Assembly: GCA_002686955.1 (NCBI GenBank)
Contig: NYZA01000242.1
Location: forward strand, 1-27,043
Direction of reading: 5' to 3'
DNA length: 27,043 nt
Source: Gemmatimonadota bacterium
GTDB taxonomy: Bacteria > GCA-2686955
Numbering within the stretch: the stretch's first letter is position 1; every line of letters starts with the position of its first letter. The notes beneath the pieces were generated by a model that searched no databases, had not been told where the DNA came from, and saw nothing but the letters and a program-made list of their open reading frames with translations. The translations under genes were made by a program, and so were the position numbers. Positions 4,760 through 26,409 of the stretch are shown here, one piece after another.

Positions 4760-5850
4760 TGCACCTTCAGAGTCGAGAGAGCCACGAGAAGCAAGAGCAC
4801 ACCCGCCAGCCAAAAACGAACGACAACGCGGTTCTCGGCCCAGCCCAGCTTCTCGAAGTGGTGGTGAATCGGGGCCATTAGAAAATAGCGCTTCCCCCCG
4901 GTCCGCCGGAAATACCAGACCTGGATGATGACGCTCAGGGTCTCCACGAAGAACACCCCTCCCATCACGGCCCAGATCAGCTCCCGCTTGAGCAGCACCG
5001 CCATGACACCGAGGGCTCCGCCGATCGGCAGCGATCCGGTGTCCCCCATGAATACATCCGCGGGGTGGCAGTTGTAGTAGAGGAAGCCGAGCGATGCTCC
5101 GACCAGCGCGGAGCAGAAGACGGTCAGCTCACCGGCACTGGGGACGTAGTAGATCCCGAGATAGTCGGCGAAGCGCGCGTGACCGGTGAGGTAGGCGAAG
5201 ACGCCCATCCCGGTTGCGGCGATCGCCACCAGTCCGATCGCGAGACCGTCGAGGCCATCGGTGAGGTTCACAGCGTTCGAGGAGCCGGTGATGACGAAAG
5301 TCACGAAGGGGATGTAGAGGAGCGAAAGATGGAGTAGGACGGTGCGCGCCTTGAAGAAGGGCACGGTGGTCGCGTCGCGGAGCTCTGGGAGCTCGGGCCA
5401 GAAATAGAGGGTCGCTCCAACGACGAGGCCGAGGAGGATTTGCGCTACGAGCTTGTAGCGGGCGATCAGCCCATCCGGCAGTCTGCGCACGTTCTTCAGA
5501 TAGTCATCGAGGAAGCCGACGCCGCCCAGAACGACCGTGACCAGCAGGACCAATAACACCGAGCGATTCGTGAGATCCGCCCAAAGAAGAGTCGAACCGA
5601 TGACCGCGGTGAGAATCAGCACTCCGCCCATCGTCGGGGTGCCCGCTTTTGATCGGTGGGATTCCGGTCCTTCGCTTCGAATCGATTCACGGTAGCTGCT
5701 TTCCCGCAGAAGCCTGATCACCCAGGGGCCGAGCAAGAGGCTCACGACCAGGGCGGTCAGGGCGGCATAGGTCGCTCTGAATGTGATGTATCGAAAGACA
5801 TTGAAGAGCGCGAAGTGTGGAGCCAGGGGCGCCAGAAGGTGATAGAGCAT
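4756..5850 (-). CDS. mraY: Phospho-N-acetylmuramoyl-pentapeptide-transferase MraY
   Basis: MraY is the integral membrane enzyme that moves phospho-MurNAc-pentapeptide from UDP to undecaprenyl phosphate, forming lipid I. The 364-residue protein has about ten membrane segments and the complete signature set: GTPTMGGVLIL (70-80), FLDDYLKN with the Asp115-Asp116 pair (113-120), SNAVNLTDGLDGLA (191-204), FMGDTGSLPIGG (267-278, Asp270) and the HHH loop APIHHHFE (326-333). Length matches the family (about 360). The ATG overlaps the murF stop as TGATG, and the stop overlaps the murD ATG. Confidence 0.98.
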   Translation of the reverse strand: MLYHLLAPLAPHFALFNVFRYITFRATYAALTALVVSLLLGPWVIRLLRESSYRESIRSEGPESHRSKAGTPTMGGVLILTAVIGSTLLWADLTNRSVLLVLLVTVVLGGVGFLDDYLKNVRRLPDGLIARYKLVAQILLGLVVGATLYFWPELPELRDATTVPFFKARTVLLHLSLLYIPFVTFVITGSSNAVNLTDGLDGLAIGLVAIAATGMGVFAYLTGHARFADYLGIYYVPSAGELTVFCSALVGASLGFLYYNCHPADVFMGDTGSLPIGGALGVMAVLLKRELIWAVMGGVFFVETLSVIIQVWYFRRTGGKRYFLMAPIHHHFEKLGWAENRVVVRFWLAGVLLLLVALSTLKVQ

Positions 5851-7241
5851 CAGGATCCTCCCCCTTCGGCGGCACGTACCGAGGCGAATCGGTCGATGAG
5901 CCGCTCCAGGGCCATCCCCCGAGAGGCCTTCACCAAGACGAGATCGCCCCGATCCGCCCAGCTCGCCAAGAACTCTGCGGCATCGGTCGGATCTTCGAAA
6001 TGGTGGACCTGGCCCCTGCTGCTCAAGCGGCCCGCGGCGGCGGAGATCTGCTCGGAAAGCGCTCCGACCGTGATCAGCAGATCGACGCCGGCCGAGTCGG
6101 CGGCCAGTCCGACGCCGCGGTGATAATCCGGGCTCAGCTCTCCGAGCTCCAGCATGTCGCCGAGGACCAGGGCACGCCTGCCACTGGCGGGCAGCGCGGC
6201 GAGGGCGGAGATGGCGGCCGCCATCGATGCGGGGTTGGCGTTGTAGGCGTCATTGATCAGGTCTACACCCCCGATCGAGAGTCGTTCGGAGCGCATCGGC
6301 GCCGGGCGAGCCGCGCGGAGCCCCTCGCGGATCGCCTCCCAGTCGCTGCCAAATCGCTCGGCCACGGCGATCGCCGCCAGAGCATTCAGCACATTGTGGG
6401 CGCCTGGCAGTCGGAGCCGCACCGGTCCCCGTCCATTGACGAGGAAGCGAGTGACGCCCCCTGCGCCGGCCTCGATATCGGTCGCGCGGTAGTCGGCTTC
6501 CCGCTCCGTTCCGAAAGTACGAAGGGCCTGACGATCGCCCAGTCGATCGCGCGCCTCATCCAGTAGTCGCGGCGCGTCACAAGGAAGAACCGCGAGCGCC
6601 GGCTCTTGATCCATGATCTCGAGCTTTGCGCGGGCGATCGCTTCGACACTTCCCAGGCTCTCGAGATGCGCGGGCCCGATATTCGTGATGACCACCACCT
6701 CTGGCGGGGCGATCTGGACCAGACGAGCGATCTCACCCGGTGTAGACATCCCCATCTCGAGTACCGCGGTGTCGACCTTCGATCCGAAGGACAGGGCCGA
6801 GAGAGGGAGCCCGATCTGGTTGTTGAAATTGCCGAGAGATGCTCCGATCCGCCCACCGCCACCCAGGGCGGCGCGGGGGAGCTCCTTCGTGGTCGTCTTC
6901 CCGTTGGTTCCTGTCACCCCGACGATCTTCGCTCCCAGCCTTTCCAGGTGTTCGGCAGCCCAGGCCTGCAGCCCGGCCAAGGGATCGTCCACGCCGATCA
7001 GCGCTCCCGCCGACCCGGCGCCGGCGGCCCATGAAGACTGCACGAGGGCACCGGCGGCCCCCGACGCCAAGGCCTGCTCGACGTGCGCATGACCATCGGT
7101 CTGCTCTCCGGGAAGGGCGACGAAAAGATCGCCGGGCGAGATCAGCCGGCTGTCGATGCAGGCCCCCGCCACGGCCGTGCTCGGATCGCCCGAGATCAGG
7201 GCGCCGTCCACGATTCGGGCAACTTCGCCCATTCGCCACAC
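5850..7241 (-). CDS. murF: UDP-MurNAc-tripeptide--D-Ala-D-Ala ligase MurF
   Basis: MurF attaches the D-Ala-D-Ala dipeptide to UDP-MurNAc-tripeptide, completing the cytoplasmic precursor. The 463-residue protein shows the N-terminal MurF substrate domain (IDSRLISPGDLFVALPG, 29-45), the P-loop VTGTNGKTTTKE (109-120), the MurF-type SLGNFNNQIGLPLS, TNIGPAHLESLGS, GAHNVLNALAA and DAYNANPASMAAA near the C-terminus. The start codon is GTG (7239-7241), ten bases after GGAGG. An ATG three codons later is 19 bases from that site and less likely. A 15-base gap separates it from the cysteine-rich small gene, the only non-overlapping junction between murE and murG. Confidence 0.97.
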   Translation of the reverse strand: MWRMGEVARIVDGALISGDPSTAVAGACIDSRLISPGDLFVALPGEQTDGHAHVEQALASGAAGALVQSSWAAGAGSAGALIGVDDPLAGLQAWAAEHLERLGAKIVGVTGTNGKTTTKELPRAALGGGGRIGASLGNFNNQIGLPLSALSFGSKVDTAVLEMGMSTPGEIARLVQIAPPEVVVITNIGPAHLESLGSVEAIARAKLEIMDQEPALAVLPCDAPRLLDEARDRLGDRQALRTFGTEREADYRATDIEAGAGGVTRFLVNGRGPVRLRLPGAHNVLNALAAIAVAERFGSDWEAIREGLRAARPAPMRSERLSIGGVDLINDAYNANPASMAAAISALAALPASGRRALVLGDMLELGELSPDYHRGVGLAADSAGVDLLITVGALSEQISAAAGRLSSRGQVHHFEDPTDAAEFLASWADRGDLVLVKASRGMALERLIDRFASVRAAEGGGS

Positions 7242-7256
7242 TGTTTCCGATCCTCC

Positions 7257-7466
7257 CTAGGCGACTCGAATCGCCTCGCTCTCGGGCAGGTCATCGGGCC
7301 GCAGAATCGGCGGGGCCGCCACGTCGAGCCAGCGGCCATGCGCCGAGGCACAGATGGCGCGGGTCAAGAACTCGCTGGCGCAACGCGGGTCGGCTCTGAA
7401 GCACTCCGCGCAATCGCTCCGCGTGACCAATCCGACTCGCGCACAATGGAATCTTTCCGAAGTCAT
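7257..7466 (-). CDS. Cysteine-rich small protein of unknown function, coupled to a receiver protein
   Basis: A 69-residue protein that I do not recognise. It has Cys at 8, 19, 22, 29 and 39 and His at 7 and 43, with the pattern HC-x10-C-x2-C-x6-C-x9-C-x3-H. This could be a small zinc-binding or redox fold (inference). The middle reads DCAECFRADPRCASEFL, and the tail is acidic and proline-rich (ILRPDDLPESE). There is no signal peptide or membrane segment, so it is probably cytoplasmic. Its ATG overlaps the stop of the preceding receiver gene as ATGA, and its stop is followed at once by the GGAGG used by murF. That coupling is the main evidence that it is translated. It is below most annotation length cut-offs and may be missed in relatives. 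Confidence 0.72.
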   Translation of the reverse strand: MTSERFHCARVGLVTRSDCAECFRADPRCASEFLTRAICASAHGRWLDVAAPPILRPDDLPESEAIRVA

Positions 7467-7831
7467 GCTCTGTTCTCCGTCTGTGCGATCCAGGGCCGAA
7501 TCGCCTCCTCGACCGCGCGGAATCCGAACGGTTTCGAAATCCAGCCGGCGGCGCCCCGCGCAAGCGCCAGCTCGCTGTTGCAACCCCACCCGCTCATCAG
7601 CACCACGGGGAGGTCCGGTTGCTCTCCATGGACCCGTTCGAGCAGTGTCCAGCCATCGAGATCGGGGATGGCCAAGTCGGTAATGACAAGGTCGAAAGAC
7701 CCATGTGCCAGCCGATTGAGCGCCTCGCGCCCGCTCGCGGCGACCGTTGCCCCGAACCCCATGAGCTGCACGAACTCCCGCACGATGCCGCGGATCTCCG
7801 AGTTGTCGTCAACGATCAGTATTTGCGTCAT
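7463..7831 (-). CDS. Stand-alone response-regulator receiver protein (CheY-like)
   Basis: A single-domain receiver of 122 residues with no output domain. Visible hallmarks are the acidic pair Asp8-Asp9 (ILIVDDN), the phospho-acceptor Asp52 in LVITDLAIPDLDGW, the switch Ser80 in LMSGWG and Lys100 in ISKPFG. It should therefore be phosphorylated by a histidine kinase or a small phosphodonor and act through a partner protein. No kinase is encoded in this window. An ATG at 7846 lies in the same frame, but the ATG at 7829-7831 overlaps the murE stop (ATGA) and gives the usual MTQILIVDD start. Its own stop overlaps the next small gene. A receiver gene inside the precursor section of a dcw operon is not part of the canonical order. 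The regulatory target is unknown; wall synthesis or division is a guess from position. Confidence 0.95.
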   Translation of the reverse strand: MTQILIVDDNSEIRGIVREFVQLMGFGATVAASGREALNRLAHGSFDLVITDLAIPDLDGWTLLERVHGEQPDLPVVLMSGWGCNSELALARGAAGWISKPFGFRAVEEAIRPWIAQTENRA

Positions 7832-9363
7832 ACCGGGTTCCCCCATTGGATGCGCAGAAACGTCTCGGCAACCCTCCGGTCGTCGAAGTCGCGCCTCTCG
7901 CGCCCCAAAATCTGGTAGTCCTCGTGCCCCTTGCCCAGCAGCACGACGGCGTCTTCGCTGCCCGCCAACGCGATTGCCCGCTCGATCGCATCGGCACGGT
8001 CGAGAATGATTTCACAGGGCCCGCTCAGACCGGCGCGCACATCTTCGACGATGTGGCCGGGATCCTCCCCTCGGGGGTTGTCGTTCGTCAGGATCGCGAC
8101 ATCGGCGATGCGGGTGACGGCGCGACCCATCACCGGTCGCTTCCCTCGGTCGCGATCTCCACCACAGCCGAAGAGCGCGATCAGCCTGCCCGCGACGAGC
8201 GGACGAAGCTCGGTCAGCACACGCTCAACCGCGTCGGGGGTGTGTGCGTAGTCGACGAAGAGCGACGGCGCCCCCGCGCCGGCCGCCACCGGTTCCAGCC
8301 GCCCCGGCACGCCCGCGAAGTCGGCCAATGCCTCGACCGCGAGTGCGGGATCGATCCCGCACGACGCGCAGCTCGCGACCGCCGCCAATCCGTTGGCGAG
8401 ATTGTGGCGGCCGGGCAGTCGCAGGAAAGCGCGAACTCCCGTTCGCACGATTCCTGGCCCGAACAACCAAAAAGTCGTTCCGCCGAGATCGACCGATTCG
8501 ACGCGCGTCGAGAAGGCCCCTTCGATCGCTCCCTCAGCCGTCGAATCGAAGCGGAGGAGCTCGATCCCTTTGGCTCTCGCCGGAATCGTCTCCCACGCGG
8601 GATCGGCCGCGTCGTAGACGATGGCGCGTTTCCAGGGCCCGGATGAGCTCCTCACCCGATCGACCAGCATCAGCTTCGCTTCGCGATACGCCTCCATCGT
8701 GCCGTGATGGTCGAGATGGTCTCGCGTGAGGTTGGTGAACACCCCGACATGCACATCGCAACCCTCGAAGCGACGCAGCTCTAGCCCTTGCGACGATGCC
8801 TCGACGATCGCCGCTTCGAGCCCCCTCTTGCGCATCTCGGCGAGCAGCGTCTGCAGCTCCAGAGCGTCGGGAGTGGTGAGTCGGGCCGAGCGTGGGCCCG
8901 CCCCGGTGTCGTATTCGACCGTTCCGAGCATTCCCGCCGGAAGTCCGAGTCGCCTCAGCAAATGACGCAGCATCCACGCGACGGTCGTCTTCCCGTTGGT
9001 GCCCGTGATTCCCAGCACCCGCATCGCCCCGGAAGGCGCGCCGTGGAATAGCCGGGCGGCACGGCCCAGTGCGAGCCGCGCATCGCGGACTTTGTAGAGA
9101 GGCGGATCTATCCCTGGATCCGCCTGGGCGATCACCGCGCAAGCACCGGCCGCCAAGGCTTCGGCGACATGATCGAGTCCGTCATGACGCGCGCCGGGGA
9201 TCGCCACGAAGACATCCCCTGGCGCGACCTCGCGGGAATCGTGCGTCAGACCGCTGTACGTTTCGCGGCCCGATATCGCCGGCGCCTCGATCAGGTTGTC
9301 GTCGGGACCGTCGATCGCACGCTCCAGCTCGGCCAGCGGTCGCCGCCTCTCCGCTCCCCTCAC
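7828..9363 (-). CDS. murE: UDP-MurNAc-L-Ala-D-Glu--2,6-diaminopimelate ligase MurE
   Basis: MurE adds the third stem-peptide residue. The 511-residue protein contains the N-terminal HDSREVAPGDVFVAIPG (41-57), the P-loop GITGTNGKTTVAW (118-130, Lys125), the substrate loop LTTPDALELQ (162-171), EASSQGLELRR, NLTRDHLDHHGTMEAYREAK (211-230, ending at the lysine that is carbamylated in the family), DYAHTPDA and GCGGDRDRGKRP. NDNPRGEDP (427-435) carries the DNPR motif that marks specificity for meso-diaminopimelate rather than lysine. The start is GTG at 9361-9363, overlapping the ftsI stop as GTGA with GGAGGGG four bases upstream. The stop overlaps the receiver gene. Confidence 0.97.
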   Translation of the reverse strand: MRGAERRRPLAELERAIDGPDDNLIEAPAISGRETYSGLTHDSREVAPGDVFVAIPGARHDGLDHVAEALAAGACAVIAQADPGIDPPLYKVRDARLALGRAARLFHGAPSGAMRVLGITGTNGKTTVAWMLRHLLRRLGLPAGMLGTVEYDTGAGPRSARLTTPDALELQTLLAEMRKRGLEAAIVEASSQGLELRRFEGCDVHVGVFTNLTRDHLDHHGTMEAYREAKLMLVDRVRSSSGPWKRAIVYDAADPAWETIPARAKGIELLRFDSTAEGAIEGAFSTRVESVDLGGTTFWLFGPGIVRTGVRAFLRLPGRHNLANGLAAVASCASCGIDPALAVEALADFAGVPGRLEPVAAGAGAPSLFVDYAHTPDAVERVLTELRPLVAGRLIALFGCGGDRDRGKRPVMGRAVTRIADVAILTNDNPRGEDPGHIVEDVRAGLSGPCEIILDRADAIERAIALAGSEDAVVLLGKGHEDYQILGRERRDFDDRRVAETFLRIQWGNPV

Positions 9364-13647: not shown

Positions 13648-14640
13648 TCATCTTGAGCGGACAAGGAGCCTCTTCCCCAGCCGAAGGGCCCCTGACTCCC
13701 ACGCATGCACCACGTACTCGTGCCGCGTCGCTCCCCAGCTCTCCTTGTAGCGCCGCAGCCCATCGGCCCCCTCGGGTGTCCCCCCGAAGTTGTAGTCGCT
13801 CTTTCCCCGCTCGATCGCCCACCGGATCGCCGTGTCGACGAGTGCGTTGTTCGGCCGCAGATGCCACCACTCCCGCTTCGAAGCCGTCAACCAGTTCATA
13901 AGAGAACTGCCCGAGCAAAAATGAAGAGTCCCCGCGACCGGCCGGTTCTCGTGATAAGCGAGATGGAAGACACATTCTTTCTTCATCGACTCTAGTATGT
14001 TCAGAAAGAGCTCTCGCGGATACACTTTCCCGCCGTGTCGATCAAGTGTTTGCGCCGCGATTTCCGCGAAGGCTCGAACACTGTCTTCATCCCTTACTTC
14101 CTCTACCCGCACTCCCTTCTCGCGGGATTGTCGGATCATCTTCCGTACGTTTTGGCTGTAGATCTTCCTGTAAACGTGTTCGTACTCGGACGGCAGTGAT
14201 ATCCGATGAGTGCAGGCTGGAATCCACTCGTAGCCGGGATGGCGGATCACAGAAAGGTCGCGTTCGAGGTCGGCTACATGGACAGAAATCGCACGTATGC
14301 TTCGGCTGCGCTCACGGAACGCATCCCAAAGCTCTCGAGCAATACCCGCGGACGCATCCGGCGCGAGAATGGGACCGCCATATGTGCCGAGCGGAAGCGA
14401 CATTATTCGCGACAGAAACCCGAATCTCGTTTGAACCGCGTAGGGAAAGGCTCCTGAGTATCCACCGTCGTTCTCTACGACAAGCACTCGTCCCTCGATT
14501 GACTCGTAACTTCTCGTCAAGGCTTTTAGCCAACCGAGCGAATGAAATGGTGTCGCTGCTGGTGATGACGCGATGAGGCGATTCCAAGCGCGCCGCGCGA
14601 TCTGCTCCGGGAGGAGCTCCGCTACCCTAATCAGTCCCAC
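13648..14640 (-). CDS. FemAB/GNAT-like acyltransferase (Acetyltransf_6 type)
   Basis: A 330-residue protein resembling the FemAB-related GNAT branch: an N-terminal TPFHSLGWLKALTRSYE segment, a first GNAT half ending GGPILAPDAS, then a second half with RKIYSQNVRKMIRQSREKGV, GTLHFCSGSSLMNWLTAS and a C-terminal DYNFGGTPEGADGLRRYKES plus WGATRHEY. The last stretch is the conserved GNAT strand and helix of this family. True FemX/FemA enzymes add amino acids to lipid II from aminoacyl-tRNA; related proteins accompany exopolysaccharide and PEP-CTERM loci. The substrate cannot be told from sequence, and no exosortase is present. The start appears to be GTG (14638-14640) with a weak ribosome site. It is transcribed in the dcw direction but 360 bases upstream, and is divergent from the protease gene. 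Confidence 0.87.
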   Translation of the reverse strand: MGLIRVAELLPEQIARRAWNRLIASSPAATPFHSLGWLKALTRSYESIEGRVLVVENDGGYSGAFPYAVQTRFGFLSRIMSLPLGTYGGPILAPDASAGIARELWDAFRERSRSIRAISVHVADLERDLSVIRHPGYEWIPACTHRISLPSEYEHVYRKIYSQNVRKMIRQSREKGVRVEEVRDEDSVRAFAEIAAQTLDRHGGKVYPRELFLNILESMKKECVFHLAYHENRPVAGTLHFCSGSSLMNWLTASKREWWHLRPNNALVDTAIRWAIERGKSDYNFGGTPEGADGLRRYKESWGATRHEYVVHAWESGALRLGKRLLVRSR

Positions 14641-14837
14641 AACAACATCTGGCTTTCATTCCGCTTCCACTCGAGATCAAGGAGCTGAGCCCGCGGGAAG
14701 GCTGTTTGACTTTCAAGGACTTGGGCTTCCCGGGAGGTTACGATACCGGCGCAGCCCAATCCCATAGTAGTTCGGCGGCCCACCGCGCGTTCCGCCACGC
14801 GCCCCGGCGATCCGCCTTGTCATCTGGAGATCGATTC

Positions 14838-16697
14838 ATGCCGATCCGGAACGCGCTTCCCTTCGCGCTCGCCTGCGCCGCGGTCGCGTTGGTCTGCCCC
14901 GCCGATGCGGCTACCCTGACCGCCTGCCTCGAGTCCGCGCTCGCGACCGCCCCCGAAGACGAGCCGATCTCCATCAACCTGCGAATGCACGCGCAGCTCG
15001 ATCTGAGTGCGTTGAGCCCGTACCTCGAGGCCATGAGGAAGACAGAGCGGCGCATGGTCGCGATTCGAGCGGCCAAGGACCTGGCCAGCAATACACAAGC
15101 TCCCCTGCTGGAGCAGCTTTCCCTCTGGGTACCCGACGGTGCTGTGTTCTCTATCCGCACTAGCTGGGGAGTGAACGAGATCAATGTGACGGCTCTACCC
15201 CGAGTGGCTCGCGCGCTTGCGCACCGTAGTGACTTGGCACACCTGGGGCTCAACGTCGAACGCGACGAATCGATCCTCGCCGATGTGGAATCCGACGAAT
15301 ACGGGAGAATGAACCGAGGCGGCGACGATGCACTGTCGAACCTCGATATGATCGACGCACCCGAGGCCTGGGCAATGGGCTTCGAAGGCCAAGGCGTCGT
15401 GATCGCCAACATCGATACCGGAACCGATCGCCACCATTCGGACTACGCTTCTCGCATATGGGAGAATCCCGGCGAGATCGCGTCCAACGCCACGGACGAC
15501 GACGGCAACGGCTATATCGACGACCTTTGGGGATGGGACTTCGACGGAGACGACAACGATCCTGGCTACGAAGAGTCTTCGCACGGTACACACACCGCGG
15601 GAATCCTAGTGGGCGATGGTACCGCCGGCACGATTACGGGTGTCGCACCTCGGGGAACGATGCTGGTGCTTCGAAGCTGCAACAGCGAATTCGATGCTCG
15701 ATCCGCCTACGAATACGCACTCGCAAACGGAGCTGACATTATCTCGAGCTCGTGCAGCTACAAGTTTCCAGACTGCCCGGACTACGCTGCGTTCCGCCAA
15801 CTATCCGAGCTCACGGCTGCCGGTGGCCTCTTTCACACCAATTCGATCGGAAACCTCCGCGGTCAGAATGGATACGCAGTTCCTTACAATATCTCCGCGC
15901 CGGCGAATGCTCCGGCCGCCTTCATCCACCCCGATCAAACACTTGTCGGATCAACCGCGGGAGTGCATGGCTGCGGGGCGGTCGACTCCGCCGGCGAGCT
16001 CAAGCACTATTCGGCGGAAGGCCCAGCGGAACATGAGGCGGGTTCTCCCTCTTGCGGTCCCCAGTATTACTACGACGACTACCCATACGATCCGGAAATG
16101 GGGCTTATCAAGCCGGACTATGTCGCGCCTACCGATGTGACAACAACGAGGCCGGGTGGTGGCTACACTTACTCTTTCGGTGGCACTTCCGCTGCCACAC
16201 CTCACTCGGGCGGCGTTGCCGCGGTCATCCTATCGGCGATCCCTGACGCCACACCCGCTCAGTTGTCGGAGGCGATGCAGATGACCGCCGTGGACCGCGG
16301 GCCGGCAGGCAAGGACAACGATTATGGCGCCGGAATCCTCGATTTGGACGACGCAATCGGCTATCTCTTGAAAGATCTCACGATTGCCCTCTCTCCCCCG
16401 GCGCTGCAGATCGCACAAGGCGGCGAAATGTCGGTCAGGGCGGAGATCTACAACAACACAGCCGACTCGATCAGCTTCGAGCTTCGGGCGGCTGCGTACC
16501 TCTCCGACGGAACCCCTTGCAGCACCAACCCGGTTCTCGGCCCCCGCATGCTCACGATCGAGCCCGGCGAACTGATGGTCAAGAACTTGGCCGGGACTGT
16601 CGATGTCCCGCCTGGAATCTATACGGTAGAAGGGATCGTTTCGATCGACGGAGCCGATCTGACAACCGATACCTTTGTTTTCGGTGTGACGCGCTAG
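14838..16697 (+). CDS. Secreted subtilisin-family (S8) serine protease
   Basis: A 619-residue exported protease. A signal peptide occupies residues 1-24 (cleavage after ADA). A propeptide-like region runs to about 180, and the S8 catalytic domain spans about 185-510. The triad is Asp193 in IANIDTGTD, His249 in SSHGTHTAG and Ser451 in GGTSAATPHSGG, with Asn339 (SIGN) as the likely oxyanion residue. The Asp-rich DATDDDGNG-like stretch at about 217-245, between Asp193 and His249, resembles calcium-binding loops of bacillopeptidase F-like members. The C-terminal 110 residues look like a beta-sandwich. The ATG at 14838 has GGAGA seven bases upstream. The frame is open for 44 codons before it, but only this start gives a signal peptide. 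Its target is unknown. Confidence 0.93.
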   Translation: MPIRNALPFALACAAVALVCPADAATLTACLESALATAPEDEPISINLRMHAQLDLSALSPYLEAMRKTERRMVAIRAAKDLASNTQAPLLEQLSLWVPDGAVFSIRTSWGVNEINVTALPRVARALAHRSDLAHLGLNVERDESILADVESDEYGRMNRGGDDALSNLDMIDAPEAWAMGFEGQGVVIANIDTGTDRHHSDYASRIWENPGEIASNATDDDGNGYIDDLWGWDFDGDDNDPGYEESSHGTHTAGILVGDGTAGTITGVAPRGTMLVLRSCNSEFDARSAYEYALANGADIISSSCSYKFPDCPDYAAFRQLSELTAAGGLFHTNSIGNLRGQNGYAVPYNISAPANAPAAFIHPDQTLVGSTAGVHGCGAVDSAGELKHYSAEGPAEHEAGSPSCGPQYYYDDYPYDPEMGLIKPDYVAPTDVTTTRPGGGYTYSFGGTSAATPHSGGVAAVILSAIPDATPAQLSEAMQMTAVDRGPAGKDNDYGAGILDLDDAIGYLLKDLTIALSPPALQIAQGGEMSVRAEIYNNTADSISFELRAAAYLSDGTPCSTNPVLGPRMLTIEPGELMVKNLAGTVDVPPGIYTVEGIVSIDGADLTTDTFVFGVTR

Positions 16698-18026: not shown

Positions 18027-19115
18027 CTAGCGTCTTCCTCTCACCCATCGCCAGAGCGGCGCAAGGCGGTGCCAACTGCGCATGCGCATAACTGATGCTC
18101 CAAGCGAGGTCTTGAGACTCTCGGAAATGGCATTCTCCGTGGCGCCGAGATCGTACATCGATCGTCCCTCATCGACCCCTTTCTCCATGGCGGTCCAGTG
18201 CAGCAGAGCATCCGCCCCAAGCGTTCTGCCCATTGCGCTGGAGAGAACGATAATATTTTGCATTCTGTCGCCGCGCACGAGATTCACCGTTGCTGCCACG
18301 GTCGATATGCCGTCGATCTCCGCGAGGCGGACCTCGATGCCATCCCCCGCCCCGCTGGTAGGCCACGCCAAGAGCAGATCGATCATTCGCCGCGCGATCT
18401 CGGGACGGTCCTCATCCTCTGGCCCGATGCTGTTTCTCAGGCCCAAAAGTGCTTGACGCTGCTCTTGCGCCGAGTGCGGAGCTCGCACCGCCAATCCTCG
18501 CCGACTCGCCTTGTCGATTCGAGATCGACACTCCGGCGCCATATCTCCGCGCAGGCGTTCCTTCCCTCTTTTCAGATCGACAACGCCACGCGAAGGAAAC
18601 CGACACTCGACTCCCGGCACGAAGGCCAGATCCTCGCCCGCGGCCGCGGTCGAGTCGACCAGATGAACCTCGGCGACCGAGGGAATCTGGAAGAGGGCGA
18701 GGGCCAGGCGTCCTCCCAGAGGAGTTCCACGCTGCCATGCGAGGTCGCTAGCCGCCGGCCACGTCTCGCCACCGGCTGTCCCCGTAGCGTGCTCCCATCC
18801 TCCCGGAGCCCCGCAGGCGATCAGAGGACCGCCGCCGGTGCCGAAAGGAAGTGCGAAGATCCGCCGGATCGGCCCAATCCTCTCCTCGACGGCCGCAATT
18901 CCGCCGACCAAACGGCCCCGCCAGCGCGCAGTAATCGCCAATGGCCTGGCGCGCCGACTCGCCCCCGCGCACGCGCTCCACCACGCGCTACCGTGGCAAG
19001 AGTCGGCCGCCGGATCGGCGGAAACCAGCTCGTCCCAATCGGCCGGAATCACCCCATCGCGCACTTCGATGCATAGCCTCGCCCCCTTCCGATCCGTCTC
19101 CCGGTCGTCACCCAA
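18027..19115 (-). CDS. Second FemAB/GNAT-like protein, in the polysaccharide operon
   Basis: A 362-residue protein with the same two-GNAT architecture as the protein at 13648-14640 but clearly diverged. It has HGSAWWSACAGA near the N-terminus, FALPFGTGGGPLIACG, CRSRIDKASRRGLAVRAP (equivalent to the N/R-R-x-I-R-x-A segment), STVAATVNLVRGDRM and the C-terminal YDLGATENAISESLKTSLGA. The function may be acylation of a sugar or wall component; the substrate is unknown. The frame is open far upstream into the dehydratase gene. I prefer the TTG at 19113-19115, which overlaps the dehydratase stop and has GGGGGAG about ten bases upstream. GTG codons at 19064 and 19052 are alternatives but would cut into the first strand. 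Start confidence is low, gene confidence high. Confidence 0.82.
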   Translation of the reverse strand: MGDDRETDRKGARLCIEVRDGVIPADWDELVSADPAADSCHGSAWWSACAGASRRARPLAITARWRGRLVGGIAAVEERIGPIRRIFALPFGTGGGPLIACGAPGGWEHATGTAGGETWPAASDLAWQRGTPLGGRLALALFQIPSVAEVHLVDSTAAAGEDLAFVPGVECRFPSRGVVDLKRGKERLRGDMAPECRSRIDKASRRGLAVRAPHSAQEQRQALLGLRNSIGPEDEDRPEIARRMIDLLLAWPTSGAGDGIEVRLAEIDGISTVAATVNLVRGDRMQNIIVLSSAMGRTLGADALLHWTAMEKGVDEGRSMYDLGATENAISESLKTSLGASVMRMRSWHRLAPLWRWVRGRR

Positions 19116-20541
19116 CGCTGCGGGTCTCCCCCAGCCGATCCGGAAGCTCCGGGACCAAGCGTTGCATCTCACGCCGAATCCCGGCCACTTCTCCATCGTC
19201 CGCGAATTGCTCGAGTCGCTCCAAGACCTCCTTGAACGAGGCGGCCTCCGGCGATCGCGGTTCGGCAAGATGCACCTTCGGCATCTCGGTCGCGGCGAAC
19301 TCGTCGGTCCAGAGCTCCTCTCTGAGTTTCTCGCCGGCGCGCAGGCCGCTGATTTCGATATCGACCTTTCGCCCCGACATCGCGACCATCTCACGCGCCA
19401 GCTCCAAGATCGAAATCTGCTCCCCCATGTCGAGCACGAACACTTCGCCACCCTGCGCCCGCGCCCCGGCAAGGACGACCAGAAGCGCTGCCTCTTTGAT
19501 CGTCATGAAGTAGCGGGTGGCATCAACATGCGACACAGTTACAGGCCCCCCCCGCTCTATCTGTCGCGCGAAACGCGGAACGACGCTTCCTCGGCTGCCG
19601 AGCACATTGCCAAAGCGCACCATCGCCAGTCGTGTGATCGGCTCATCCCCCATCTCCACCGCTCGGTGTTGCAACATGATTTCTGCGATCCGTTTCGACG
19701 CCCCCATCACACTGATCGGCCTCACCGCTTTGTCGGTCGATAGCATCACCAAACGGCCGACACTCGCGGCGATCGCCGCGTCTACGACATTCCTGGTGCC
19801 AAGAATATTTGTCTTCACCGCCTCATCGGGCTGCTTCTCCATCAAAGGCACGTGCTTGTGCGCCGCTGCATGAAATACAATGTCGGGAGATCGCGCCGCG
19901 AGTACTCGGCCGGTTCGAGAAGCATCGCGCACGTCCGCTACATCGACGCGGACCGGCACGTCGCCATGATCGGCGGCCAGCTCCTCCTCGAGCTCGAAAA
20001 GCTCGTTCTCGGCATGCCCGAAAAGGGCCACTTCCGCGGCCCCCGATCGACACGCCCACCTGCAGAGCTCCGAACCGATCGATCCGCCCGCTCCGGTGAC
20101 CAAGACCCGCTTCCCCCCCAATCGCGCCGCTGCCTCGGAGGGCCGCAGCTCCACCGCCTCTCGCCCGAGCAGATCATCGGGCTGAATCGGTCGAATCTGA
20201 TGCCATCGCACTTCACCGAGCACGATTTCGCGAATGCCGGGAACGATCCGAAGCTCGGCGTCGACCCGTCGACAGGTGCGCAACAGTTTTCGCACCACCT
20301 CTCCTTCCGCCGACGGGATCGCGAGAAGCAGCATCTCGACTCCCCTCGTCGTCACGATCGATTCGATCGCCCCCCGATCGCCGAGCACATCGAGGCCGAA
20401 GCGCCGCCTCCCCGCCAGCGTCGGATCGTCGTCCACGAAACCGATCACTTCGAGATCGAGCTCGGGGTGGGCGGCGATCTGTTCCGCGGCCATTCTCCCC
20501 GCGACTCCGGCGCCGATGATCAGGACTCGCCTGCGGCTCAT
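19108..20541 (-). CDS. Soluble nucleotide-sugar 4,6-dehydratase (PglF/CapD/FlaA1 type)
   Basis: A 477-residue protein of the polysaccharide-biosynthesis CapD/PglF group, which typically converts UDP-GlcNAc to the 4-keto-6-deoxy sugar as the first step to modified amino sugars. It has two Rossmann folds: VLIIGAGVAG (6-15), and VLVTGAGGSIGSELCRW (146-162) followed by HAAAHKHVPLME. The catalytic segment STDKAVRPISVMGASKR has Thr269-Asp270-Lys271 and Met279 in place of the usual SDR tyrosine, as in PglF-like members. Most long relatives begin with four membrane helices; here the protein starts directly with the first Rossmann strand and is predicted soluble. The ATG overlaps the previous gene stop (ATGA) behind GGGAGGAGGG. 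The 777-codon open frame upstream of this ATG is antisense-like noise. Confidence 0.94.
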   Translation of the reverse strand: MSRRRVLIIGAGVAGRMAAEQIAAHPELDLEVIGFVDDDPTLAGRRRFGLDVLGDRGAIESIVTTRGVEMLLLAIPSAEGEVVRKLLRTCRRVDAELRIVPGIREIVLGEVRWHQIRPIQPDDLLGREAVELRPSEAAARLGGKRVLVTGAGGSIGSELCRWACRSGAAEVALFGHAENELFELEEELAADHGDVPVRVDVADVRDASRTGRVLAARSPDIVFHAAAHKHVPLMEKQPDEAVKTNILGTRNVVDAAIAASVGRLVMLSTDKAVRPISVMGASKRIAEIMLQHRAVEMGDEPITRLAMVRFGNVLGSRGSVVPRFARQIERGGPVTVSHVDATRYFMTIKEAALLVVLAGARAQGGEVFVLDMGEQISILELAREMVAMSGRKVDIEISGLRAGEKLREELWTDEFAATEMPKVHLAEPRSPEAASFKEVLERLEQFADDGEVAGIRREMQRLVPELPDRLGETRSVG

Positions 20542-22459: not shown

Positions 22460-23599
22460 CTATCCTACGACATCGGGGGGGAGCGCGGTGCTCCAGGATC
22501 TCTCCATGCGCGCAGGCGCCGCTGCGCTGATCCCCTCGACTTCGAGCGTGATGTGGGTCACTTGCGGTGATCTACGCCGGATCTCCGCCTCCAACTCGTC
22601 GATGATGCTCTCCGCCCGACTCAATGTAACGGTGACCGCGGCGTATGACTCCGCATACGATCGAGCTTGGGCGGTATCTCGCCACCTCGGTTCCACCTCC
22701 GCCAAGATCTTTTCGCGCGCTTCCTTCAACGCACTGTCCAGCCCGGGGATGATCGCCTCTTCCTTGAGTTCTACTTCCCCCACCAATATTGTGTAGCTTT
22801 CATCGAGGATGATGGAACGAAGATCGTGGTAGCGCTCGACCTCCGCGTGTGCCTCGGCGACGTCGGCGAACACCTGTTCCGCGTTCGCGTCTCGCATGTC
22901 GGCGAGGTAGCGCATGTTGGTTCGGCCGAGGTAGAACGCGATCACCCCGAGCATCACGGCGATCAGAGCCGAGAAGAGAACGTCCCATATTTCGTTGCCG
23001 GTAAGGGCGGTCAATCCGACTCCAAAGGCGGCGAAGAGAAGACCGAGCATGGCAACGCCGTCTTCGAGCACCACCGCGACCAAGGTGGGGTCTTTCGCCC
23101 GGAATAGGTAATTGAAGGGGCTTTTGAAATTGTCATCCCGCATGGCTCCCAAGAAGGCTCTGATCGCAATCACGAAAGAGTACCCCTCGAGCAGGAATGC
23201 GATGCCCAGCACGACCAGATTCACCGTCAGAGGGGAGACTTCGATGTGAAAGAGCTGCGTTGCCTCCTCCGCTGGCGAATGCCCCAAATCTCGCCACGAG
23301 TGCCAGGCGTGAGAAAGGCCGAGCCCGCAACCGATCGAGAAGAGACCGATCGCACTCCATAGATTCCACAAGTACTTCTTCTGTCCGTGGCCAAAGGCGT
23401 AGTGAGCATCGGCGGGTCTGTCCGCCTCTTTCAGGCCGATCAAGAGGAATGCCTGATTCAGTGTGTCCATCAGCGAATGCACCGCCTCGTTCGTCATTGC
23501 CGCTGAACCACTGAGGACCGACGCCGTGAACTTGATGACCGTGACGATCGAGTTGGTGACGATGGCGGTGAACACCGCCTTTCTTGAGCCGTGGGCCAT
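22460..23599 (-). CDS. Cation diffusion facilitator, ZnT9-like branch
   Basis: A 379-residue CDF transporter, which exchanges Zn(II) or another divalent metal for protons. It starts MAHGSRKAVFTAIVTNSIVT and has about six membrane segments. Segment 2 carries HSLMDTLNQ, and HYAFGHGQKKYLWNLWSAIG follows in the next loop and segment 3. Segment 5 has LEDGVAMLGL instead of the usual HxxxD; Glu-Asp at this place is what I recall for the SLC30A9/ZnT9-like branch, so metal specificity may differ from ordinary zinc exporters. A cytoplasmic C-terminal ferredoxin-like domain of about 130 residues follows. The ATG at 23597-23599 has only a weak ribosome site. Its relation to the glycan genes 39 bases downstream is probably only co-transcription. 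Confidence 0.92.
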   Translation of the reverse strand: MAHGSRKAVFTAIVTNSIVTVIKFTASVLSGSAAMTNEAVHSLMDTLNQAFLLIGLKEADRPADAHYAFGHGQKKYLWNLWSAIGLFSIGCGLGLSHAWHSWRDLGHSPAEEATQLFHIEVSPLTVNLVVLGIAFLLEGYSFVIAIRAFLGAMRDDNFKSPFNYLFRAKDPTLVAVVLEDGVAMLGLLFAAFGVGLTALTGNEIWDVLFSALIAVMLGVIAFYLGRTNMRYLADMRDANAEQVFADVAEAHAEVERYHDLRSIILDESYTILVGEVELKEEAIIPGLDSALKEAREKILAEVEPRWRDTAQARSYAESYAAVTVTLSRAESIIDELEAEIRRRSPQVTHITLEVEGISAAAPARMERSWSTALPPDVVG

Positions 23600-23629
23600 G
23601 GGGGACTCTCGCGGATGGGTTTGGGGGCC

Positions 23630-23706
23630 GCGCAAGATTAACTTGTCATCTTGGCGCCCAGATGTGCCGCAGATCTGGGCGCCAAGATGACAAGTTGTTC
23701 TTGCGC
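23630..23706. repeat. Large palindrome, 34-base arms
   Basis: Arms at 23630-23663 and 23673-23706 are reverse complements at 32 of 34 positions around a 9-base loop. The inner 24 bases match perfectly. It lies between the beta-propeller stop and the CDF start. No T-run flanks it, so an ordinary intrinsic terminator is unlikely. The right arm with its flank recurs at 25154-25190 in opposite orientation. Confidence 0.9.
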
Positions 23707-23751
23707 GAACCCTTTGGGCAGGATGAAGATCCGTCATTCGCAGTCGTTGGC

Positions 23752-24987
23752 CTATTTCACAACGAGCATTCTCTGGGAGGCGGCGAGATGGTCTTCGAGG
23801 ACCAGTTGAAGCAGATAAACCCCGGAAGAAAGACCCGCGGCGTGGAGCCGGCGACTGTGGTCACCGGCTACCTGGTACCCTTCGTTCAGAGTCCGAATCT
23901 TCCTCCCTTGGACATCGTAGATGTTCAACACGACGTGCGCTGGTCGATCCAACGAATAACGGATTGTCGTGGATGGATTGAATGGGTTTGGGTAGTTGTG
24001 GACCTGCTGCACTCTACTATGGTTGGCAGGGGTTTTATCGTCGATACCCACTTCGCCAAGGCCAAGCCGGAAGACTCCTCCGCTTTCCGTCCCAATAAAT
24101 ATGTGCGTAGTCGTAACCGTCACTGCTGTCACATTTCCGCCGCTCACACCGCTCATTCCAATCGGGATGAAGTTGACGAAGTCTACCGAGTAGTAGCCGC
24201 TTTCGCCGAACACCAGCACCATTCCAGCCGTCAGCGAGAACGTAAGTGTATTGAAAAGCTCGCTCTCGATCACTGGGAGCCAGCTATCGCCCAGGTCGCT
24301 CGACATGTAGAATCCGCCATGTGTCGCGGCCATAACGAGCGATCCGAAAGCTGCCAGTCTCTTCGCGGAAAGCGCGTCGCCGGTCAATCCGTTGTTCTTC
24401 TCGGTCCACGTGTTAATTCCATCGGTGGAGAAGTAAACACCGCCTTCCGTCGCGATCACGGTGAAAGACGTCTCGTCGTCGTCGTATCCACTCATGTCGT
24501 TAACCTGCAGTCCGGCACCGGAGATCCCTGTGTTTCTGGCAGTCCACGGCCCCAGCTCATTCGCCGCGACGTAGACTCCGCCACCGTCGGTCCCGAGCGC
24601 CCAGTCGGTTTCCGGCGTATCGGTGTCGCCAAACCAGTAGTAGTTGGTGTTTCTGTTGGCTACACCGATCGAAGCGTCGGCGTAGATGGCGTGGTCCACT
24701 GTCAAATAGGCTCCGTCGTCCGTTGCAGCCCAAATGACCCGGGGGGCGCCCCCTCCACGGATATCGTTGATGCTCGTGGAACCGATATCGCCGCTGATGT
24801 CTACCCAGCTCGCTCCTCCGTCCCCGGAGCGGAAAATACCGCCGGCAGTGCCTACCATTACGGTGTCCACGTAGGCGAATAGAGATCGAACAGAAGTATC
24901 ACCCAAGCCGTTGTTCACTTCCTCCCATGCGCTTTGCGCCAAGGCCGTGTTGATCAGAAGTAGTGACATCCATGCTGGTGTTCTCAT
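23752..24987 (-). CDS. Secreted beta-propeller protein with C-terminal type IX-style sorting module
   Basis: A 411-residue exported protein. The signal peptide is residues 1-17 (cleavage ALA/Q). Repeated blades of about 40-60 residues share a GGVY/F...DG..W core: GTAGGIFRSGDGGASW (46-61), GTDGGGVYV (132-140), ATEGGVYFSTDGINTW (179-194), ATHGGFYMSSDLGDSW (221-236) and GTESGGVFRL (299-308), as in BNR/photosystem-stability-factor-like propellers. Residues 329-411 form a FlgD-Ig or Por-type sorting domain: NYPNPFNPSTTIRYSL, LNIYDVQGRKI, GLSSGVYLLQL and a C-terminal lysine. This suggests secretion and surface attachment by a type IX-like system, none of whose parts is encoded here. The ATG has AAAGGA eight bases upstream. 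The gene is bracketed by copies of an inverted repeat. Confidence 0.93.
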   Translation of the reverse strand: MRTPAWMSLLLINTALAQSAWEEVNNGLGDTSVRSLFAYVDTVMVGTAGGIFRSGDGGASWVDISGDIGSTSINDIRGGGAPRVIWAATDDGAYLTVDHAIYADASIGVANRNTNYYWFGDTDTPETDWALGTDGGGVYVAANELGPWTARNTGISGAGLQVNDMSGYDDDETSFTVIATEGGVYFSTDGINTWTEKNNGLTGDALSAKRLAAFGSLVMAATHGGFYMSSDLGDSWLPVIESELFNTLTFSLTAGMVLVFGESGYYSVDFVNFIPIGMSGVSGGNVTAVTVTTTHIFIGTESGGVFRLGLGEVGIDDKTPANHSRVQQVHNYPNPFNPSTTIRYSLDRPAHVVLNIYDVQGRKIRTLNEGYQVAGDHSRRLHAAGLSSGVYLLQLVLEDHLAASQRMLVVK

Positions 24988-25649: not shown

Positions 25650-25807
25650 GGAAAGAGCGATTCTGTCGTTGGATGCTCTTGGCCGCGCTGGCCATCATGG
25701 GAGTGTCATCGCTGCTGGCGGATCGTAGTATCGTTTTCTCCTCCGCGAAAGTATGGGTCCGATCCGCCGATGGTCGCGTCGGCTACGAGGGGCGGGGCGG
25801 GATGTAA
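25646..25807 (+). CDS. Small membrane-anchored protein, unknown
   Basis: A 53-residue protein: basic N-terminus (MRKERFCRW), one hydrophobic segment (MLLAALAIMGVSSLL) and a short hydrophilic tail (VWVRSADGRVGYEGRGG). It may be a membrane-anchored or exported small protein. Its ATG overlaps the stop of the preceding shifted frame as ATGA, and GGAGAAG lies five bases upstream, which supports translation and coupling. No family is recognised, and there is no sign of a longer original gene downstream. Confidence 0.5.
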   Translation: MRKERFCRWMLLAALAIMGVSSLLADRSIVFSSAKVWVRSADGRVGYEGRGGM

Positions 25808-25896
25808 CGGCGCCGGCATCGATAGGCCGAGCAGGAATCGGCGGGTCGGGCAGGCCGAGACTCGGGAGCCGGTGCGCGGCAGACTCCCGGAGACCC

Positions 25897-25902
25897 TACA
25901 AT
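25897..25902 (+). promoter_or_regulatory. Candidate -10 element placing the transcript start on the nlpC-like ATG
   Basis: TACAAT ends six bases before the ATG at 25909. With the usual 6-7 base distance the transcript would begin at the A of the ATG, i.e. a leaderless mRNA. No good -35 (TTGACA-like) sequence is seen 17 bases upstream, and no usable Shine-Dalgarno precedes the ATG (the GGG is only two bases away). Confidence 0.4.
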
Positions 25903-25908
25903 AGGGAC

Positions 25909-26409
25909 ATGATACCGGCGCTTCGAGCAGGGTCGATTCACGGAGTGCTATTCGTTGTGGTCCTCTTCTCGCTGGTTGCCGGCTGTGGCCAATCGGAAGA
26001 AGAGATCCTGGCACGGATCGAAAAGCAGCTGCGCGAGCTGGCCGCGGAGTGGGACGGCACGCCGTACCGGGACGGCGGGACCTCCCGCGAGGGGATCGAT
26101 TGCTCCGGACTCGTCCAGACTCTCTACCGCGAGGTCTTCGATCAGGAGCTCCCTCGCAGCGCCAAGGCCCAGGAGAAGGCCTGCTTGGAGATCACCGTCG
26201 AGAGCCTGCGGCCGGGCGATCTCATCTTCTTCCGCACCAAGGGGATCGGTCCTTTCTTCAAGCGAAGGCATGTGGGCGTGTATCTGAGCGATCGTGAGTT
26301 CGTTCATGCGTCGAGCAGCAAAGGCGTGACGATATCGAGTCTCGACGACCACTACTGGAAGACGAAGTTCCACAAGGCAGCGCGGATCTCGGCGGGCGAG
26401 GAGATCTGA
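25909..26409 (+). CDS. NlpC/P60 peptidase, lipoprotein
   Basis: A 166-residue lipoprotein of the NlpC/P60 cysteine peptidase family, likely a gamma-D-Glu-meso-DAP endopeptidase that cuts peptidoglycan stem peptides in the periplasm. The signal sequence ends in the lipobox LVAGC with the lipidated Cys26. The catalytic domain starts at about 46 (WDGTPYRDGGTSREGIDCSG) with Cys65 in GIDCSGLVQTLY, His121 in RRHVGVYL and a third polar residue, His133, in EFVHASSSKGV. LRPGDLIFF is the usual core strand. Size is like Spr/MepS-type enzymes with no extra binding domain. The ATG is chosen because only it gives a lipoprotein signal; the open frame upstream does not. meso-DAP specificity fits the DNPR-type MurE of this genome. 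Confidence 0.95.
   Translation: MIPALRAGSIHGVLFVVVLFSLVAGCGQSEEEILARIEKQLRELAAEWDGTPYRDGGTSREGIDCSGLVQTLYREVFDQELPRSAKAQEKACLEITVESLRPGDLIFFRTKGIGPFFKRRHVGVYLSDREFVHASSSKGVTISSLDDHYWKTKFHKAARISAGEEI

Follow-up and report, generated by a model that had tools for sequence, protein, structure and literature searches.

Gene order between murE and murF

The window, which is the whole stretch of 27,043 nucleotides analysed here from a Gemmatimonadota bacterium, carries on its minus strand a dcw operon in the order mraZ, rsmH, ftsL, ftsI, murE, receiver, small protein, murF, mraY, murD, ftsW, murG. The dcw cluster is one of the best-kept gene orders in bacteria, and the operon in the window is canonical except for two co-directional genes between murE and murF, a stand-alone CheY-like receiver and a small protein with four conserved cysteines (Table 1). 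The coordinates, both ATGA overlaps, the gene order and the 15-nt spacing before murF, as described in the first-pass annotation, are borne out by the sequence, and the presence of both genes in the murE-murF interval is confirmed in this window. Near the junctions, no promoter-like site was found in a scan for sigma-70 type sites only, and PADLOC gave no match at the locus. The C-terminal part of ftsI looks PASTA-repeat-like when judged by eye.

Table 1. Genes of the murE-murF interval and other genes of the window
Feature	Positions	Strand	Remarks
murF	5850-7241	-	GTG start at 7241, 15 nt past the small gene
Four-cysteine small protein, 69 aa	7257-7466	-	Stop at 7257; sister-genus homologue between murE and murF; common block LTRAICASAxG
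Stand-alone CheY-like receiver, 122 aa	7463-7831	-	Stop overlaps the small-gene ATG at 7466 (ATGA); D8, D9, D52, S80 and K100 intact; W97 at the Tyr/Phe switch position
murE	7828-9363	-	Ends at 7828, overlapping the receiver ATG at 7831 (ATGA)
GNAT-like Acetyltransf_6 domain protein	13648-14640	-	Also matches FemAB
Subtilase-family (S8) protease	14706-16697	+	Opposite strand, beside the dcw operon
GNAT-like Acetyltransf_6 domain protein	18027-19472	-
Cation_efflux family protein	22460-23737	-
Protein with Por_Secre_tail domain	23752-24987	-	Type IX-like C-terminal sorting
NlpC/P60 protein	25753-26409	+	Apparent secreted lipoprotein, possible wall hydrolase

Several other genes of the window are listed in Table 1 as observations in their own right. 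Two GNAT-like proteins are encoded near the dcw operon, one of them with a FemAB match; FemAB proteins known from elsewhere attach amino acids to precursors of the wall.

The small four-cysteine protein

The phylum sample in our collection comprises two genomes, the window genome and one of another genus in the same family (hereafter the sister genus). A homologue of the small protein was found in the murE-murF interval of the sister-genus genome, with an E value of 1.3e-8 in the whole-genome search and 2e-13 in the pairwise comparison. The window protein contains five cysteines (positions 8, 19, 22, 29 and 39) and two histidines (7 and 43), as the first-pass annotation had counted them, but as a conserved set this does not stand, for only four cysteines are common to both genomes. 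These are C8, C19, C22 and C39, a set of four candidate metal ligands with one CxxC pair and the spacing C-x10-C-x2-C-x16-C, defined on two sequences. C29, H7 and H43 of the window protein correspond to F, F and N in the homologue, and no histidine is shared. The two proteins (69 aa in the window, 74 aa in the sister genus) are 50% identical over residues 1-44, compared with 52-53% for MurE and MurF of the same two genomes, and their C-terminal third is poorly conserved.

At the codon level, 44 positions were compared: 8 codons are the same, 14 carry only synonymous differences and 22 encode different residues, so that 14 of the 22 codons for identical residues carry synonymous differences. 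The synonymous rate dS is saturated and dN is 0.46. When the same 60 nucleotide changes were placed at random, the mean number of residues kept was 11.7, and the observed number (22 of 44) was never reached in 20,000 trials. The codon usage of the small gene also matches that of the operon. Since 22 identical residues were never obtained by random placement, the comparison argues that the small frame is a real gene under constraint and no chance ORF; purifying selection, on which the first-pass annotation had made its proposal depend, is present. This conservation comes from one comparison between two genomes, both of which are incomplete assemblies of MAG quality (84.5% complete at 4.28 Mb for the window genome, 83% for the sister genus).

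Searches against known families gave no relative of the small protein. Neither homologue had a Pfam match at E values up to 10, the window protein had no NCBIfam match at E values up to 1, and at these thresholds it falls into no curated small metal-binding family of the two databases. Among PDB sequences the protein itself had no match, and a profile built from the two sequences returned only thermitase, which was dismissed as a chance match. AlphaFold models of both proteins, predicted from a two-row alignment, agree at low confidence (mean pLDDT 55 and 51) on a hairpin spanning roughly 6-14 and on two helices (16-25 and roughly 29-42); C8, C19/C22 and C39 lie within these elements. Foldseek with the small-protein model returned nothing below an E value of 1.8. 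Because the models are of low confidence and no fold was matched, metal binding is read from the cysteines alone, which probably hold one metal, zinc being the likeliest. An Fe-S cluster or disulfides are possible alternative roles for them.

In order to see how far the arrangement extends, we also examined more distant genomes. Among the 28 genomes with the most similar MurE outside the family, murF adjoins murE in 23 and lies elsewhere in 5. The gap between the two genes is -19 to 122 nt in all 23 (23 of 23), which leaves no space for the small gene or the receiver. The two-sequence profile, whose reach is limited so that distant homologues could escape it, found no credible further homologue in 386 genomes across the domain (including the two positives), nor any in three phyla with similar MurE, of which 47, 249 and 95 genomes were searched. 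A scan for the pattern across 84,980 GTDB species, each represented by one genome, returned only JALXCG. Weak profile matches in other phyla had stops in frame, ran antisense to other genes or lay within unrelated proteins, and were rejected. A match on a viral contig was likewise rejected, as it lies inside a 483-aa frame resembling, by eye, an IS21-type transposase.

The receiver and the sister-genus locus

The receiver (122 aa) matches Pfam Response_reg (PF00072) over nearly the whole profile (positions 1-110 of 111; E value 2.7e-22; 79.5 bits against a cut-off of 30.2). Its domain spans residues 4-111 and no output domain is present. The acidic pair, the phosphorylated Asp, the Ser/Thr and the Lys are all in place, which bears out the intact Asp52, Ser80 and Lys100 seen in the first reading and adds D8 and D9; the switch position holds Trp (W97) in place of Tyr or Phe. 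The closest solved structures are CheY, Spo0F and NtrC-type receivers. With a codon usage of 0.187 per codon and a GC3 of 0.79, the receiver lies within the ranges of the operon (0.18-0.32 and 0.74-0.84) and so is not visibly foreign.

In the sister genus, the operon lies on JALXCG010000506.1, deposited as a Gemmatimonadetes MAG, in the order rsmH, ftsL, ftsI, murE, small gene, murF, mraY, murD, ftsW. There murE and the small gene overlap by ATGA, murF follows directly after the small gene, and the receiver is absent from the interval, as seen directly. The best match of the receiver in that genome is 41% identical (34% over the tree alignment). When 29 receivers of the two genomes were placed in one tree, the murE-linked receiver had a long branch (1.71) and no supported neighbour, while for several of the others one-to-one partners were seen in the two genomes. 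No orthologue was found in the sister-genus genome, which is 83% complete, so one encoded elsewhere could be missed.

The first-pass annotation had treated the receiver and the small protein as one unit and suggested checking in related genomes whether both are conserved and co-occur. In the one relative available, the small gene is kept between murE and murF, but the receiver is absent and the two genes do not co-occur; the small gene stands there alone, joined to murE by ATGA. A conserved receiver-microprotein system is therefore not supported by these genomes. As far as the two genomes show, the small gene was at the murE-murF site already in the common ancestor of both genera. Since the small gene is common to both, the parsimonious reading is that the receiver entered the window lineage later, in a single insertion, which is simpler than a gain with a subsequent loss.

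Possible roles and comparison with known systems

We favour, with nearly even confidence, a reading in which the small protein is an accessory of precursor synthesis, restricted to this lineage and probably zinc-binding, and in which the receiver was inserted later and works through binding that depends on phosphorylation. Both functions are read from the features described above. The small protein would be a cytosolic protein of 69-74 aa, translationally coupled to the upstream gene. Its N-terminal 45 or so residues would probably form the predicted beta-hairpin and helices around one metal, likeliest zinc, held by the four cysteines. Its role would probably be that of a small structural adaptor or accessory, with a Mur ligase or some other protein of division or the wall as its binding partner. 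The receiver would have been inserted between murE and the small gene with ATGA coupling kept on both sides. As it has no output domain, it most likely works in the manner of single-domain response regulators, through protein contacts that depend on phosphorylation; its kinase would be encoded elsewhere in the genome, and its target may be a wall enzyme. The position of the small gene and its coupling to murE across two genera suggest a role with precursor synthesis or division, with the caveat that a shared location with murE and murF need not imply functional linkage.

A serious rival, which we consider quite possible, is that both genes are plain passengers unrelated to the cell wall and owe their place in the dcw operon to nothing more than steady expression, as may be the case for other genes that have entered dcw clusters. 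In Neisseria, dca or another gene occupies the same interval, and in N. lactamica a different hypothetical gene stands in place of dca (PMC1538595), which agrees with such a role, as does the lack of conservation of the receiver in the sister genus. However, the small gene has held its place and its murE coupling since the genera split, over a distance at which MurE is only 52% identical. It is unlikely, though still to be weighed, that the small protein is a redox- or Fe-S-responsive regulator instead of a structural zinc protein. The four conserved cysteines with their CxxC pair would suit such a regulator, but searches of Pfam, NCBIfam and PDB sequences showed no resemblance to an Fe-S or redox family, and in silico this role looks the same as zinc ligation.

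The proposal that the two genes form one signalling module, in which the phosphorylated receiver controls the small metal protein and the latter tunes MurE/MurF or septation, now appears improbable. It draws on the ATGA coupling on both sides, the position in the operon and the intact phosphorylation residues. Against it, the small gene of the sole relative is coupled straight to murE with no receiver beside it, and no receiver orthologue was detected there; moreover, the window genome contains 64 receiver-domain matches, so that one inside an operon is unremarkable by itself. A spurious frame for the small ORF, or a mis-assembly for the receiver, is hardly credible. GC-rich DNA does yield long chance frames, and both assemblies are fragmented (270 and about 900 contigs). 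For the small gene, though, this explanation is refuted by the homologue that an independently assembled genome carries at the same place and by the protein-level constraint, and for the receiver it is opposed by operon-like codon usage and the seamless ATGA junctions on its flanks. What stands of the first-pass interpretation is that the genes are real, co-directional and, for the small frame, under selection, and that four cysteines fit a metal site; its two-gene unit is not supported, and its ideas that the pair is made in fixed ratio with the wall enzymes and that it senses metal, redox or phosphorylation state to adjust precursor synthesis are conjectural.

The new element is a four-cysteine protein, undescribed and under constraint, found between murE and murF in a phylum that has scarcely been sampled, with a lineage-specific receiver alongside. 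Such a protein, fixed at this site, suggests that precursor synthesis or division has a component peculiar to the lineage. If the receiver touches MurE or MurF, two-component signalling would have a direct hold on wall synthesis in the cytoplasm. A bolder extension, which we regard as improbable, is that the phylum has a new metal-dependent family of small four-cysteine adaptors of MurE/MurF and that in one genus the added receiver puts this step under two-component control; peptidoglycan precursor synthesis would then be controlled by phosphorylation through genes encoded within the dcw operon itself.

No report of a response regulator or a small zinc protein between murE and murF was found in the literature. 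The small protein resembles small four-cysteine zinc-binding proteins in general in its four conserved cysteines, its CxxC pair and its short length, but its cysteine spacing fits no Pfam or NCBIfam model. The receiver is like CheY, CpdR, Spo0F and Myxococcus EpsW, which are single-domain response regulators, in having a receiver domain with the phosphorylation residues and no output domain. For example, EpsW stimulates a glycan-initiating (envelope-polysaccharide) enzyme by direct contact (PMC12802240). Unlike these proteins, the window receiver is encoded inside the dcw cluster between murE and the small gene, has Trp for Tyr or Phe at the switch position and is without a close orthologue. 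As to location, genes inserted between murE and murF are not unheard of, for Neisseria dca is also a lineage-specific gene inserted in this dcw interval (PMC1538595). However, dca is linked to competence, being reported as needed for it in N. gonorrhoeae (PMC1538595), and is, going by its description, unrelated to the receiver and the small protein.
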